From Vibrio astriarenae (GTDB taxonomy: Bacteria; Pseudomonadota; Gammaproteobacteria; Enterobacterales; Vibrionaceae), in assembly GCF_010587385.1 (NCBI RefSeq), contig NZ_CP047475.1, positions 310,001 through 374,000 of the forward strand: a stretch of 64,000 nucleotides of DNA, written 5' to 3'. The translations under genes were made by a program, and so were the position numbers. A model generated the notes under the pieces. It was not told the origin of the DNA and did no database searches. It was given only the letters and a program-made list of their open reading frames with translations. This document shows positions 1 to 14,011 of this stretch, piece by piece (the first letter of the stretch is position 1; every line of letters starts with the position of its first letter).

Positions 1-1075
1 CCTCGGAGGATTGTAGTTCTTGGTGATATAGTTGGGTGGCAAAGGAGTGCCTAAGATCGTGATAACTAAGTGCTTGGTTTAGATAGGGGACTAATGCTCT
101 TACTCGTCTAAAGGTTGTTGTGGCTTGCTTCGCACTTATAGGGAGCCCCTTTCCTACGTTATCATTACGAACAAATAAGGTTTGTGTACTTACCTGACTA
201 GAATCGTTTACGGTAGTTGCTCGCTCTCCGTCATGGTATATTTTCATACTCTCGAGTAGTTCTCGGTCAAAATAGATTACACCAGTTTTACCTCCCTTGG
301 TGTACTTCCCTCGTATTACGTACTCCCAAACCATCTTTTCAGGACGAGATTTCAACTCTTCAAATATTGATATTAGGCCTCGGTGCTTACCGTGGTCATT
401 AAGTTCCAATCCACAGTTTTCTTCTGCTCGTAGGCCAACTTCGTATCCCATTTGCAATATCAGTTTGTCACGAGCACAAGTACAATTGCGTAACAGGTCG
501 TTGTATTCATCAGTTGCGACATAACTAATTTTGAGAGGCCGAGTATCCTTTTCTGCCATCCATTGTATTGTCTTCTTGTAAATCGTTGTCGGCCTATTTT
601 GGTCTTTGGGCCAAACTCCAAGAGCACATAAAAAGTTACAATATGCTGCAATGCCCGACTGATGTGCCTTGAGAGAGGTTATGGATGATAGACTGTTTGG
701 TAATACCTGATTTAGGTAATGGTTTAGAAAGCGTGTGGTTATGTTTTCAGTGTGGTGAATACTCAGGTCGGGCAGGCTATTTATGTACTTAAGTAACTTG
801 TATACGTGCCCTATATAATTGACAAGTGTATTTTCTGTTGCGGGCTCTGCCTTGAAGGTAGTCTTTACGTTTCTTTGTCTTTTGCGTGTAATTGCATTGC
901 CATAAGAACTTCGGTTACCGGTAGTATGCCAACCCCACACTTCTTGTTTGATAGCAATATGTATTGACCATAAACAGGGCAAAACAATTGGTTCACGATT
1001 ATCGTCAGAAAATAGATATATCTTATCTATGTCGATACCGTCTAGTTTGAAATTATGAAAAAGGTCTTTGTACAT
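1..1075 (-). CDS. Tyrosine site-specific recombinase (integrase), partial, runs off left end
   Basis: Reading the minus strand from the ATG at 1075 gives 358 uninterrupted codons to the window edge, so the 3' end is missing. The N-terminal part (about 1-180) is unfamiliar apart from a SAM-like core-binding region. The catalytic domain follows: GYEVGLRAEE supplies the box I arginine (R216), the GKYTKGGK hairpin the active-site lysine (about K260), and YHDLRHSFATQ the box II H-x-x-R (H339, R342). The last histidine/tryptophan motif and the tyrosine nucleophile would lie beyond the edge. An in-frame TAA upstream limits the start to ATG 1075 or GTG 1087; no good ribosome binding site is seen. The gene starts about 100 bp from broken trmL and reads away from it, as an element's integrase often does near its attachment site. 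Family-level identity is sure, subfamily unknown. Confidence 0.88.
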   Translation of the reverse strand, partial: MYKDLFHNFKLDGIDIDKIYLFSDDNREPIVLPCLWSIHIAIKQEVWGWHTTGNRSSYGNAITRKRQRNVKTTFKAEPATENTLVNYIGHVYKLLKYINSLPDLSIHHTENITTRFLNHYLNQVLPNSLSSITSLKAHQSGIAAYCNFLCALGVWPKDQNRPTTIYKKTIQWMAEKDTRPLKISYVATDEYNDLLRNCTCARDKLILQMGYEVGLRAEENCGLELNDHGKHRGLISIFEELKSRPEKMVWEYVIRGKYTKGGKTGVIYFDRELLESMKIYHDGERATTVNDSSQVSTQTLFVRNDNVGKGLPISAKQATTTFRRVRALVPYLNQALSYHDLRHSFATQLYHQELQSSE

Positions 1076-1157
1076 GGCAAACCACACAGAGACAGCTTAC
1101 TAACTTTTTTAAGACTAGAGCTAATTGCTCCAATACGCCAAAAATACCCTAAAAAAA
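1076..1157. other. Element end between integrase start and trmL junction
   Basis: Short AT-rich, non-coding stretch between the integrase start and the end of the broken trmL frame. It should hold the integrase promoter and recombinase arm or core sites. I see A/T-rich runs but no clear repeat that I could call a recombinase binding site. Confidence 0.4.
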
Positions 1158-1232
1158 TTACAGTTCGGTATGGGTTTCTATTTTACCTGTGTTAGGCGCA
1201 ATCTCAGGTTCGTAAAGAGCAATGTCAAACAT
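1158..1232 (-). pseudogene. trmL: 5' fragment of trmL (tRNA Cm34/Um34 methyltransferase), cut by an insertion
   Basis: From the ATG at 1232 the frame reads MFDIALYEPEIAPNTG, which is the start of TrmL (YibK/CspR), the SPOUT enzyme that 2'-O-methylates the wobble base of tRNA-Leu. Family members continue N-I-I-R-L-C-A-N, but here the frame goes to KIETHTEL and a stop. The rest of the roughly 155-residue protein, including the SAM-binding knot, is absent. Homology ends at the conserved PNTG-N codons (about 1183-1200), so this is the likely crossover site of the element carrying the integrase at 1-1075. trmL is expected next to cpxA in vibrios, which supports the identification. Whether an intact copy is restored at the far end of the element cannot be seen. 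Confidence 0.8.
1180..1200. other. Inferred attachment-site region inside trmL codons 11-17
   Basis: On the minus strand the trmL-like sequence runs through CCTAACACAGGTAA and then stops matching the TrmL protein family. A tyrosine recombinase core site is therefore inferred here. The exact ends of the core cannot be set without the other junction or an uninterrupted trmL from a related strain. Confidence 0.5.
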
Positions 1233-1329: not shown

Positions 1330-2706
1330 CTAAGCCAGCGGCAGCGTGATGGTGACCTTGAGTCCGCCGAGATTGCTGCGCTGAGCGTGTATTTTTCCGC
1401 TGTGTTGTCTGACGGCATTTTCTGTAATGGCTAAACCAAGTCCCGTACCGCCCGAGTCTCTGTCGCGAGCGGTTGAGACGCGGTAGAAGGGCCGGAAAAT
1501 TTGATCGAGCTGTTCGTCGGGCACACCCGGGCCATCGTCATCCACCATAATAGTGACGCGCTCTCCTGTGATGCTGAAGCTGACCTCGATGGCTTGGTCG
1601 GCATAGCGAATGGCATTGCGAATGACATTTTCAACCGCGCTGATCAGCAATTTGGGACTCCCCGAGATACTCTTGTCGGGGATAGCATTGAAGCTAAGCG
1701 CTTTGCCAGATTGCTCCGCCTCAAACTGAGCGTCATCAAGCAGACCTTCCCATAGACTGCTCAAGGGCTGCAGTTCTCGACTTAGGTGAGAGTCCATTTG
1801 CATGCGAGAGAGCGACAGCAGCTCAGAGATCATCTGTTCGAGCCTCTGTGCTTCGGTATCAATACGTGTCAGTTCGCTGCTTTCACCTTGTTTGCGCTGC
1901 GCCAATGCTGAAGCCATTCTCAAGCGAGTAAGAGGAGAGCGCAGCTCATGAGAAATATCAGACAACAGACGCTGCTGACCCGAGATCATGGAATTCACAG
2001 CATCAACCATTTGGTTGAAGCTCTGGCCTGCCTGACGAAACTCGCGCGTTCCCTGCTCAAGCTTAGGGTCCTCAACAAATTCCCCTTTTGCAACGCGCCG
2101 CGCAGCTTGCTCTAGTCGGCGCGCTGGTTGACTGATTGCCCAAGCGAGCCACAGCAGCAGGGGTGTACTGACAACCATGACCACGATGAGTAACTGAAAA
2201 GGTTTATCGAACAGGCGAATTAGGTAGGGCGGTGGCTCATTCCAGCGTAACCCCATATACAGTTGCAGTGGTTGGTTGGCTAATTCAACCTTTACTGGGC
2301 CTGCAAGCATCCACTGTCCGTAGAGTTTTTGTTGCGCAGTGTTGGGAAAGTCGGTGCTAGAGACAAAGTTTTTGAGCACCTTGCGTTTGTAATCGGAACG
2401 GTCACCTTGAGTTAAGATATTGCCTTCACTGTCTGCCAGATAAAGCGACGGCTTTCGATGACGATTCTTGTTGAGCTCCTTATTGAAGTCATCAATGATC
2501 ACGTTAAGATCTTGGGTCATCCGATAGTGGTTCTCGACATTACGTGCCAATCGTTCTAAACGCTCAGCATGCTCAGTTGAGAGCTCACGCACTTTACGTG
2601 GATCTAGGTGAGGCAGAGAAAGCACGGCGATCACCACCAACATGATGGTGAACCAAAAGATGGCGAATATTCGCCCATACAGGCTACTGAACTTTGGAAG
2701 CTTCAT
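1330..2706 (-). CDS. cpxA: CpxA envelope-stress sensor histidine kinase
   Basis: Inner-membrane sensor kinase/phosphatase of the Cpx system, which detects misfolded envelope proteins and controls CpxR. The 458 residues match the family length. They show a membrane segment at about 13-33, a periplasmic domain to about 165, a second membrane segment at about 170-191, and a HAMP linker. The phosphoacceptor box is SDISHELRSPLTRL with H253. The ATPase shows the N box (VIRNAIRYA) and the glycine boxes DDDGPGVP and GTGLGLAI. Its ATG overlaps the cpxR stop by 4 bp (ATGA), so the two are translationally coupled. Downstream comes the interrupted trmL. Confidence 0.96.
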   Translation of the reverse strand: MKLPKFSSLYGRIFAIFWFTIMLVVIAVLSLPHLDPRKVRELSTEHAERLERLARNVENHYRMTQDLNVIIDDFNKELNKNRHRKPSLYLADSEGNILTQGDRSDYKRKVLKNFVSSTDFPNTAQQKLYGQWMLAGPVKVELANQPLQLYMGLRWNEPPPYLIRLFDKPFQLLIVVMVVSTPLLLWLAWAISQPARRLEQAARRVAKGEFVEDPKLEQGTREFRQAGQSFNQMVDAVNSMISGQQRLLSDISHELRSPLTRLRMASALAQRKQGESSELTRIDTEAQRLEQMISELLSLSRMQMDSHLSRELQPLSSLWEGLLDDAQFEAEQSGKALSFNAIPDKSISGSPKLLISAVENVIRNAIRYADQAIEVSFSITGERVTIMVDDDGPGVPDEQLDQIFRPFYRVSTARDRDSGGTGLGLAITENAVRQHSGKIHAQRSNLGGLKVTITLPLA

Positions 2707-3398
2707 GAATCGGCCTCAACTAACATATAGCCGCGACCTCGTAAGGTCTTGATCAGGGTACGTCCTTCTCCCGACTGAGTGAGCTTTTTACGTAAGTTAG
2801 ACACGTGCATGTCGACGGCTCGGTCAAAAGCAGAAAGGCGCTTGCCAAGTACTTCTAGGCTCAGCACTTCCTTGGTGAGAACATCGCCAGGATATTGCAG
2901 GAAGTAATCCAGTAGCGCGAACTCCGTCGTGGTGAGGTCAAGAAGTTGTTCGTCGAGATACGCCTCTAGCTTACCTGGGTAGGTGACAATATTGAGGTAC
3001 TCGTGACAGTCTTTCGTGCCACTTTTCTTTGCGGGCTCTTTTGCGGTTCGACGCAAAATCGCTTTGATACGTGCAAGTAGCTCACGGTCACTGAATGGCT
3101 TAGGTAAGTAGTCGTCTGCGCCAAGCTCGAGACCGATGACGCGATCGATCTCTTCCCCTTTTGCAGTCAGCATGAGTACCGGAGTTTCCCAATTCGCTCT
3201 AAGCTGCTTTAGAGTCTCGATGCCATTGAGTTTTGGCATCATCACATCGAGTAAGATTAAATCTATGTTCTCGTCCAAAAGCGCGAGCCCTGCTTCGCCA
3301 TCATTGGCCTCACTGATCTGAAAGCCTTCAAAGGTCAATACTTCAGTCAGTAGTGACGTTAGCTCAGTATCGTCATCAATCAAGAGAATATGGTTCAT
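2703..3398 (-). CDS. cpxR: CpxR response regulator
   Basis: OmpR-type DNA-binding regulator of envelope stress genes. The receiver domain has the acidic pocket (IDDD near residue 8), phosphoacceptor D51 in ILLDVMMPKLNG, the switch threonine in LTAKG, and K100 in DDYLPKPFSD. A winged-helix effector domain follows, ending RTLIKTLRGRGYMLVE. At 231 residues it is full length. It leads the cpxRA operon and is divergent from cpxP; TTTAC/GTAAA repeats in the shared 200-bp gap suggest autoregulation. Confidence 0.97.
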   Translation of the reverse strand: MNHILLIDDDTELTSLLTEVLTFEGFQISEANDGEAGLALLDENIDLILLDVMMPKLNGIETLKQLRANWETPVLMLTAKGEEIDRVIGLELGADDYLPKPFSDRELLARIKAILRRTAKEPAKKSGTKDCHEYLNIVTYPGKLEAYLDEQLLDLTTTEFALLDYFLQYPGDVLTKEVLSLEVLGKRLSAFDRAVDMHVSNLRKKLTQSGEGRTLIKTLRGRGYMLVEADS

Positions 3399-5386: not shown

Positions 5387-6382
<996 letters not shown>

Positions 6383-12553: not shown

Positions 12554-14011
12554 ATGACACATTGGATAGCAGGTGAATGGATTGCAGGTCAAGGCGATGC
12601 AATGCAATCGGCGAGCCCTTATGATGGCGAGGTGATTTGGCAAGGGGATAGTGCCACACCAGCACAAGTAGAATCCGCGGTCACAGCCGCTCGCACGGCT
12701 TTTTTATCATGGAAGACATTGACTTTCTCACAGCGCGAAGCTGTGGTGCTGGCTTTTGCTAACAAACTAAAAGAGCGTGCAGAGCAGATAGCGGAAGTGA
12801 TCGCTCAAGAGACGGGTAAACCACTTTGGGAAACACGCACTGAAGCTGCTGCTATGGCGGGTAAGGTGGCGATTTCTATCCGAGCTTACCACGAGCGTAC
12901 AGGTGAGCAACAACGTGAGGCAAATGGCAATCAGATCGTTTTGCGTCATCGACCGTTGGGTGTTATGGCGGTATTCGGGCCTTACAACTTCCCGGGGCAC
13001 TTACCTAATGGCCATATTGTACCTTCGCTGCTTGCTGGTAATACCGTTGTGTTCAAGCCCTCAGATCTCACTCCGCTAACGGGCGAATTTGTCATGCGAT
13101 TGTGGCAAGAAGCTGGGTTGCCAGCAGGTGTGATTAACCTAGTACAGGGCGGTAAAGAGACGGGGGTAGCCTTGGCACAAGCGAAAGGGATTGATGGTTT
13201 ACTCTTTACTGGCAGTGCGAATACTGGCCACATTCTACATCGTCAGTTTGCTGGTCAACCTGATAAGATGCTGGCGCTTGAAATGGGGGGGAATAACCCT
13301 ATGGTTATTTCGCAGCACTACGGCGAGCTGGATGCTGCTGTGTATACCATTTTGCAGTCGGCCTTCATAAGTGCAGGCCAACGTTGTACATGTGCACGTC
13401 GCCTTTATGTTCCAGAAGGCGCTTCAGGGGATGCACTGCTTGATAAGCTGATAAGTGCCACTCAGGCGATAGCGATTGACGAGCCATTTGCTGAGCCAGC
13501 GCCATTTATGGGGCCACAGATTTCAGTGCAAGCTGCAGAGCATATCCTCGCAGCACAAGAGAGTTTGCTGTCACTGGGTGCTAAGTCACTGCTAGCAGCG
13601 AAATCGCTTGGTCATGCCTTTGTTACTCCCGCGATTCTTGATGTCACAGCTATCGATGACCTACCTGATGAAGAGTATTTCGGCCCGATACTGCAGGTGA
13701 TTCGTTATCAAACTCTAGAGCAAGCGGTCGAGCTTGCCAACGATACTCGATACGGCTTATCGGCAGGTCTTATCTCAACCGATGAGGGGGAATGGGCATA
13801 TTTTGTAGAGCACATTCGTGCGGGCATTGTTAACCGTAATCGTCAATTGACGGGGGCGAGTGGTGATGCACCATTTGGTGGGCCTGGTGCTTCCGGCAAC
13901 CTGCGTCCAAGCGCCTATTATGCCGCAGACTACTGCGCGTATCCTATGGCTTCAATGGAGGGCAGTGAGCCTCTTTTACCCGCGACATTGAGTCCTGGCC
14001 TAACACTATAA
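12554..14011 (+). CDS. astD: Succinylglutamate-semialdehyde dehydrogenase
   Basis: NAD-dependent aldehyde dehydrogenase that oxidises N-succinylglutamate semialdehyde. The 485 residues show the NAD-binding FGPYNFPGH and FTGSANTGH loops, the general-base glutamate E243 in LEMGGNNP, and the nucleophile C278 in [11 protein letters not shown]. Late conserved motifs are [13 protein letters not shown] and [14 protein letters not shown]. It follows astA closely. astB (succinylarginine dihydrolase) and astE are not in this window, so the pathway is split. Confidence 0.96.

Follow-up and report, generated by a model that had tools for sequence, protein, structure and literature searches.

Strand-biased circularizing elements (SEs) are described as mobile elements that form a strand-biased circle without leaving an empty site, with a fingerprint at their left attachment end (attL) and a footprint of 6 bp at the right one (attR) (PMC10214605, PMC9345347). 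Their reported median size is 15,688 bp (PMC10214605). SE-6283 and its Vibrio kin are described as lying in bcp and carrying a bcp gene, as if as a replacement (PMC9345347). Here we report an SE-like element of 16,786 bp that interrupts trmL, a tRNA-modification gene, in Vibrio astriarenae and that carries a complete trmL of its own. Its intA-proximal end lies at the left edge of the analysed stretch of 64,000 nucleotides (the window, C1:310001-374000; the genome has two contigs and 4,799,333 bases), and the whole element spans C1:294398-311183.

Other systems resemble this element in part. GInts carry, in third place and beside ginD, a protein that is described as lacking the first arginine (PMC5385486, PMC10214605). 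According to the SE authors, the Tn554 family has three genes, tnpABC, with no counterpart of the SE protein Tfp, and RIT elements have three recombinases of 315-410 aa that are all catalytic (PMC10214605). Tn552-II carries a target-gene-like gene, tgl, for which its authors suggest a possible target rescue (PMC12486829). Islands in dusA and trmE also target tRNA-modification genes, with other integrases according to the abstracts (PMC4482086, PMC8409611).

The first-pass annotation of the window had proposed an integrative element with cargo outside the window and a tRNA-modification gene as its target, and this held once the far end, the trmL remainder and empty sites were found. On the minus strand host trmL starts at 1232 and keeps its first 16 codons, and positions 1158-1232 read MFDIALYEPEIAPNTG followed by KIETHTEL and a stop codon. 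As had been noted, the likeness to the trmL family ends after PNTG, where eight foreign codons and a stop continue into the element. The frame of the trmL head agrees with the intact trmL of relatives up to CRGGTA and diverges one base further on. The insertion site is a 6-bp block in trmL codons 15-16, in the conserved NTG-N stretch. The recombinase gene that had been placed about 100 bp beyond the junction has its start at 1087, at a distance of about 96 bp, and is directed away from the junction, off the left edge of the window; it is not a lone integrase, as it opens an operon of four genes. No tRNA gene was found in the window with ARAGORN. The GC content of the element is 0.403, compared to 0.467 for the rest of the window and 0.480 for the left flank. 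A simple island with direct repeats was also considered and rejected: the CCTAACACAGGTAA region, for which a repeat had been expected at the far junction, is not repeated, as C1:250001-374000 contains no further copy of the junction 14-mer when 0 or 1 mismatch is allowed. What the junctions show is a footprint of 6 bp.

A search of the genome with the TrmL profile (TIGR00185) gave five matches, two of them strong and adjacent and the other three with E 9.4e-15 and above. One of the two is the remainder of the host gene, which the first-pass annotation had suggested looking for to the left; it is headless (C1:293970-294392, minus strand, profile positions 17-153) and lies at the far end of the element. 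The other is a complete trmL (C1:294585-295040, plus strand, profile positions 1-152) that begins 187 bp inside the far element end and reads inwards. This spare is the only full-length trmL found in the genome, and it differs from the host gene in direction and in sequence. As the element carries a complete spare, neither of the two outcomes that had been envisaged, simple loss of TrmL or its recovery from the other end, applies.

The same arrangement recurs in other genomes. Searching 296 genomes of the family with IntA gave nine matches at E 1e-20, five with 60-100% identity and four with 27-32%, and the same five were obtained at E 1e-60 from 227 genomes of the genus. TrmL was compared in 14 genomes, of which nine had given an IntA match and five had not. 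Each of the five element genomes (V. astriarenae, G000, and G243, G262, G278 and G279) has two TrmLs, a whole one (84-100% identical to the query) and a headless one (60-61%), whereas the other nine each have a single whole TrmL (61-64%). Thus, the spare and headless pair was present in 5/5 genomes with a close IntA and in 0/9 without, and all five elements sit at the same trmL codon. Both V. astriarenae flanks align to one uninterrupted locus of 3.5 kb in eight of nine element-free Vibrio loci; at the ninth, L037, the left flank alone aligned. Because the same codon is broken in five Vibrio genomes and the flanks join in these eight empty loci, the junction is not an assembly join, which had been named as a possible refutation.

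The V. astriarenae empty site sequence was deduced from these relatives. At attL all five elements keep the target block CRGGTA, followed by a similar element end. At attR they have ATAA, then six bases that are different in each element (TTGCTG in V. astriarenae; GTGCGT, TTGCCG, GTTTCC and TAAAAG in the other four), and then host ACATYATY. Possible terminal inverted repeats appear weak, with 5-7 of 12 bases matching between the ends, compared to a standard of 13-19 bp, imperfect, for SEs. In all five elements the spare encodes 154 aa and is directed inwards from a start that lies 177-187 bp from attR, and its place and orientation are constant while the remaining cargo varies.

Over its full length the spare can be aligned with TrmL chains of known structure (best with 7e3s, residues 1-153, E 2.1e-65), and it matches SpoU_methylase with 106.6 bits. 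In a tree of 34 TrmLs a branch with 100/100 support separates nine intact Vibrio host copies and the five remnants from the five spares, which fall in a starred set of 11 together with six database TrmLs (Vibrio sp. MM46, V. vulnificus, Vibrio sp. Y20_XG_PY13, Halopseudomonas, Motiliproteus and Pseudoalteromonas). Because the tree puts the spares apart from the Vibrio host copies and remnants, the spare is, judged by phylogeny, foreign to the Vibrio line. Silent differences were saturated in seven distant spare pairs (G000 or G279 against another; pS 0.79-0.85), with pN of 0.05-0.12, and of three close pairs two had a dN/dS of 0.07 and 0.09 and the third had no silent difference; these values indicate strong purifying selection on the spare. 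A TATAAT lies 63-65 bases 5' of the spare ATG in four of the five elements, and G279 has TATAAA-type boxes at 91 and 77. Based on these data the cell probably retains, through the spare, the function that the insertion destroyed. Against this, the spare scored below the curated NCBIfam TrmL cut-offs (176 bits for a cut-off of 190.6 and 208 bits for one of 282), the first of which was exceeded by 2/13 matching control genomes. A consensus promoter scan scored no plus-strand promoter at the region upstream of the spare.

We consider it very probable that an SE-like element was inserted by tyrosine recombination at the 6-bp block of trmL, with a four-gene operon at one end and a foreign, complete trmL at the other, and that it would move through a circular intermediate and carry a spare able to methylate. 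By analogy with SEs, strand exchange by the four proteins at the 6-bp block would yield a circle, and the circle would enter trmL. The native trmL promoter would then drive a stub of 24 codons, and the spare, expressed from its own promoter, would take over and is predicted to methylate position 34 of the host tRNAs. The recipient cell would lose little, and the insertion would be nearly harmless. The idea that the spare is immune to its own element through an altered att block was dropped, because the spares at L035 and L036 each have only a single base changed relative to CGGGTA.

From attL inwards the operon encodes IntA (400-408 aa in five elements), gene 2 (693-697 aa in four), gene 3 (919-933 aa in four) and gene 4 (172-174 aa in five), with 408, 697 and 927 aa for the first three in V. 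astriarenae. In G278 genes 2 and 3 are each split into two frames (L024:2078-6956), and therefore this copy is probably stuck. The catalytic set of gene 3 (R464, H708, R711, H736 and Y745) is invariant in 8/8 alignment rows. The first (catalytic) arginine of gene 2 is missing by eye in the four rows shown, and for its model ranks 1-26 were all tyrosine recombinases or fold relatives.

This design is close to that of SEs, which likewise have at one end four genes for a recombinase, a non-catalytic recombinase-fold protein, a large recombinase and a small protein; for the second protein of the trmL element a tyrosine-recombinase fold is predicted. Further points in common are the 6-bp block, which is the target's own at attL and foreign at attR in all five trmL elements, the lack of mobilization genes, the few chosen sites and, with SE-6283, a copy of the target gene aboard. 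The trmL element differs in its target, in the greater length of its gene 3 (720 aa in SE-6945) and, as it appears, in the weakness of its terminal inverted repeats. We compared the four proteins with five SEs (SE-6945, recognised in pSEA1 by its Tfp accession, and those of pAQU1, Alteromonas, V. pectenicida and Shewanella LC6). With hhalign, gene 1 gave 97% with IntA, the catalytic end of gene 3 gave 6% with IntB, gene 2 gave 0.3% with Tfp and gene 4 gave 0.2% with Srap. Genes 2 and 4 thus have no detectable similarity to the Tfp and Srap profiles of these five SEs, and a more distant kinship is possible. An SE identity was first taken from the gene order and was changed after this comparison; because proteins 2 and 4 lack detectable similarity to SEs or GInts despite the match in operon and footprint, we refer to the element, on the basis of its proteins, as SE-like and not as an SE.

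The alternative that survives best is that the element belongs to a highly divergent clade of true SEs, with the same ancestor and mechanism and with sequences too distant for the tests used. The shared gene order, the non-catalytic protein in second place and the 6-bp footprint all fit with this, as do the size near the SE median, the occurrence mostly in marine Gammaproteobacteria, the alignment of gene 1 and, weakly, of the catalytic end of gene 3, and the very distant members that the SE authors report (PMC10214605). However, genes 2 and 4 stayed under 1% and neither IntA nor gene 3 had a match at E 1e-5 to pSEA1, which was among the plasmids searched and is said to carry SE-6283, and we regard this possibility as real but on balance doubtful.

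GInts are alike in having a four-gene operon of recombinase-type proteins and a small protein, in cargo and in site specificity, and a 6-nt staggered exchange has been proposed for them. They differ in that the arginine-less protein is second in the trmL element, where the third gene has the full catalytic set. As the single type for GinA-GinD we used an element of E. coli that lies at ssb, has avs4 in its cargo and is taken for a GInt by its site and gene order; only gene 1 aligned with it (87%) and the others reached at most 2.6%, which is a thin test as GInts are diverse. Another E. coli record considered as a possible GInt, H132, proved to hold a metabolic insert and no recombinases and was set aside. 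With the Tn554 family and Tn552-II the trmL element shares the left flank block carried to the new right end and, in tgl, a spare target-like gene. By description, the Tn554 family has three genes, is found in Firmicutes and has no gene 2 counterpart, whereas the trmL element has four genes. RIT elements differ in the size of their proteins and in that the second protein of the trmL element lacks the first arginine.

Relatives of the operon were found at other targets. An alignment scan with gene 3 confirmed 49 loci in named genomes, mostly of marine Gammaproteobacteria by their titles, and none of nine stretches was confirmed when genome contigs were scanned with IntA alone. The host side was read at 50 loci, of which L029 and L077 are the same place; some targets were named by NCBIfam, and chosen targets were searched for in the genomes. 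The dgt gene was split in 5/5 genomes searched, three of which have a whole E. coli-type dGTPase directly after gene 4, and the genomes of the other two (L080 and L086) contained no E. coli-type dGTPase. In V. salinus this copy matches NF003429 with 589 bits, and the broken host dgt belongs to another subfamily with 22-23% identity. A dUTPase-like gene was broken in 4/4 genomes searched with no second copy matched, and comM/yifB was split in 1/1 (L066:5440-6705) with no spare. The dinB gene was broken near its start in 2/2 (L062:5367-6410 and L065:4860-5909), and each of these genomes has a second, near-complete dinB on another contig. From these counts, a spare is therefore the rule for trmL (5/5), frequent for dgt (3/5) and unseen for the dUTPase-like gene (0/4) and comM (0/1). 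Separately, the end of a similar dGTPase (92 residues, 54%) was observed on a 3.2-kb contig with a gene 3 relative (L076:2847-3122). In an Alteromonas relative, L093, the host side before intA (5498-5860) and a region after the operon (about 13436-13774) match over 113 codons with 71% identity, which may be a third spare or a simple repeat.

The absence of a spare from the dUTPase-like and comM relatives, together with the varied cargo of such elements, would fit with the second trmL being ordinary cargo that matches its target by chance and whose retention has nothing to do with the broken target. We find this improbable: the spare occupies the same place and orientation in 5/5 elements amid different cargo, and no TrmL match was found in the 49 named loci of the group, with flanks of up to 10 kb that do not always reach the far end (L058 falls short of it).

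It is less probable still that the element provides a start from which the headless host gene is translated into a working protein, the spare having another task. The frame of the remnant is open in 5/5 genomes (144-163 aa), the element end provides an in-frame ATG in V. astriarenae (MKSFLVAIIADIIRL) and the remnant still matches SpoU_methylase with 97 bits. However, the first strand and the conserved NTGN stretch at the start of the domain are missing, the clear ATG was seen in V. astriarenae alone, and a recent insertion equally explains the open frames. Finally, an ordinary integrative and conjugative or integrative and mobilizable element with a single integrase is very hard to maintain, as the tyrosine recombinase adjoining the junction belongs to an operon of three recombinase-type genes, the footprint is 6 bp, and no relaxase or transfer domain was found among 12 element open reading frames scanned against Pfam.

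Beyond the SE-like insertion itself, we tentatively propose, while leaning slightly against the proposal as a whole, that these elements are four-gene tyrosine-recombinase transposons of a third group, which may be undescribed, is found mostly in marine Gammaproteobacteria and inserts into genes of nucleotide and tRNA metabolism (trmL, dgt, dinB, the dUTPase-like gene and comM). Bringing one's own target would have evolved more than once: trmL would be replaced by a foreign orthologue and dgt by an isofunctional enzyme that is not its orthologue. Should the SE rule apply, the attR block would record the last donor site and none of the five trmL copies would have come from trmL; each would last have come from another site, and the spare would be a ticket into the chromosome for an element that otherwise travels outside it. 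It weighs against this donor-site reading that tblastn of 72,556 plasmids gave no close plasmid copy, with identities of 28-49% for IntA and 33-39% for gene 3 (three records each).

Our literature search, judged in part by titles, found no work on trmL/yibK as a target of integrative elements or genomic islands, and the SE site tables in the supplement of PMC10214605 may still list an SE in trmL. New here are trmL as a target, the fixed place of the spare and the dgt relatives, 3/5 with a non-orthologous dGTPase; SE-6283 with bcp is the known precedent for a spare target gene. How elements that land in protein-coding genes keep their cost low becomes a testable question: the spare varies in presence no more than the recombination genes do, although other cargo changes, and targets can be compared for the selection that favours harmless insertion. 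The elements also add a recombinase group that is like SEs and GInts in design and not in detectable sequence. A gene count would score such a genome as trmL-positive and overlook the broken native gene.

Table 1. Coordinates of the junction features (window positions unless a contig or locus is given) and of the dgt-split relatives.
Feature	Position	Strand	Basis
intA-proximal element end	1..1183	-	boundaries from five elements against intact trmL loci
IntA-like tyrosine recombinase, 5' part	1..1087 (whole gene C1:309861-311087, 408 aa)	-	PF00589 Phage_integrase, E 1e-15
Element end, first 24 bases, motif C-like	1160..1183	-	starts AAATAR or TAATAG, alike in five elements
Target 6-bp block CAGGTA retained at attL	1184..1189	-	CGGGTA in four relatives; equals the uninterrupted trmL block up to the wobble base
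Host trmL, first 16 codons	1185..1232	-	frame and comparison with relatives' trmL
Eight foreign codons and stop read from the trmL head	1158..1184	-	open reading frame
dgt-split element with dGTPase	L077:12676-14148		
dgt-split element with dGTPase	L088:12683-14155		
dgt-split element with dGTPase	L099:12701-14173		

Next to the trmL head, the open reading frames at 1330-2706 and 2703-3398 are, as we take it by eye and from the first-pass annotation, cpxA- and cpxR-like. To the left of the window, the V. astriarenae cargo includes an Olokun-like pair of overlapping genes (OloA, E 1.1e-45; OloB, E 1.9e-46; L002:5258-9227, equal to C1:295258-299227), a helicase and, further in than the pair, a candidate defence protein with an FRG domain and an nSTAND-like ATPase. 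The elements of G262, G243 and G278 (L020/L021, L022/L023 and L024/L025) appear by eye to carry a whole set for sialic acid catabolism, with nanA-, nagA-, nanE- and nanK-like genes, a transporter and a porin, as a mobile sugar-use cluster; the cargo of the G279 element is other than this set. A trio of a helix-turn-helix protein, a 183-aa protein and a 459-aa helicase recurs at different targets (L024:7692-10011, L030:8818-11169 and L031:8684-11035), with related genes in the V. astriarenae element (L002:9296-11513), and is possibly a shared defence or maintenance module. On a conjugative Marinobacter plasmid (L052:19974-31223), a relative of the operon adjoins an annotated integron integrase with bla and qnrVC1.
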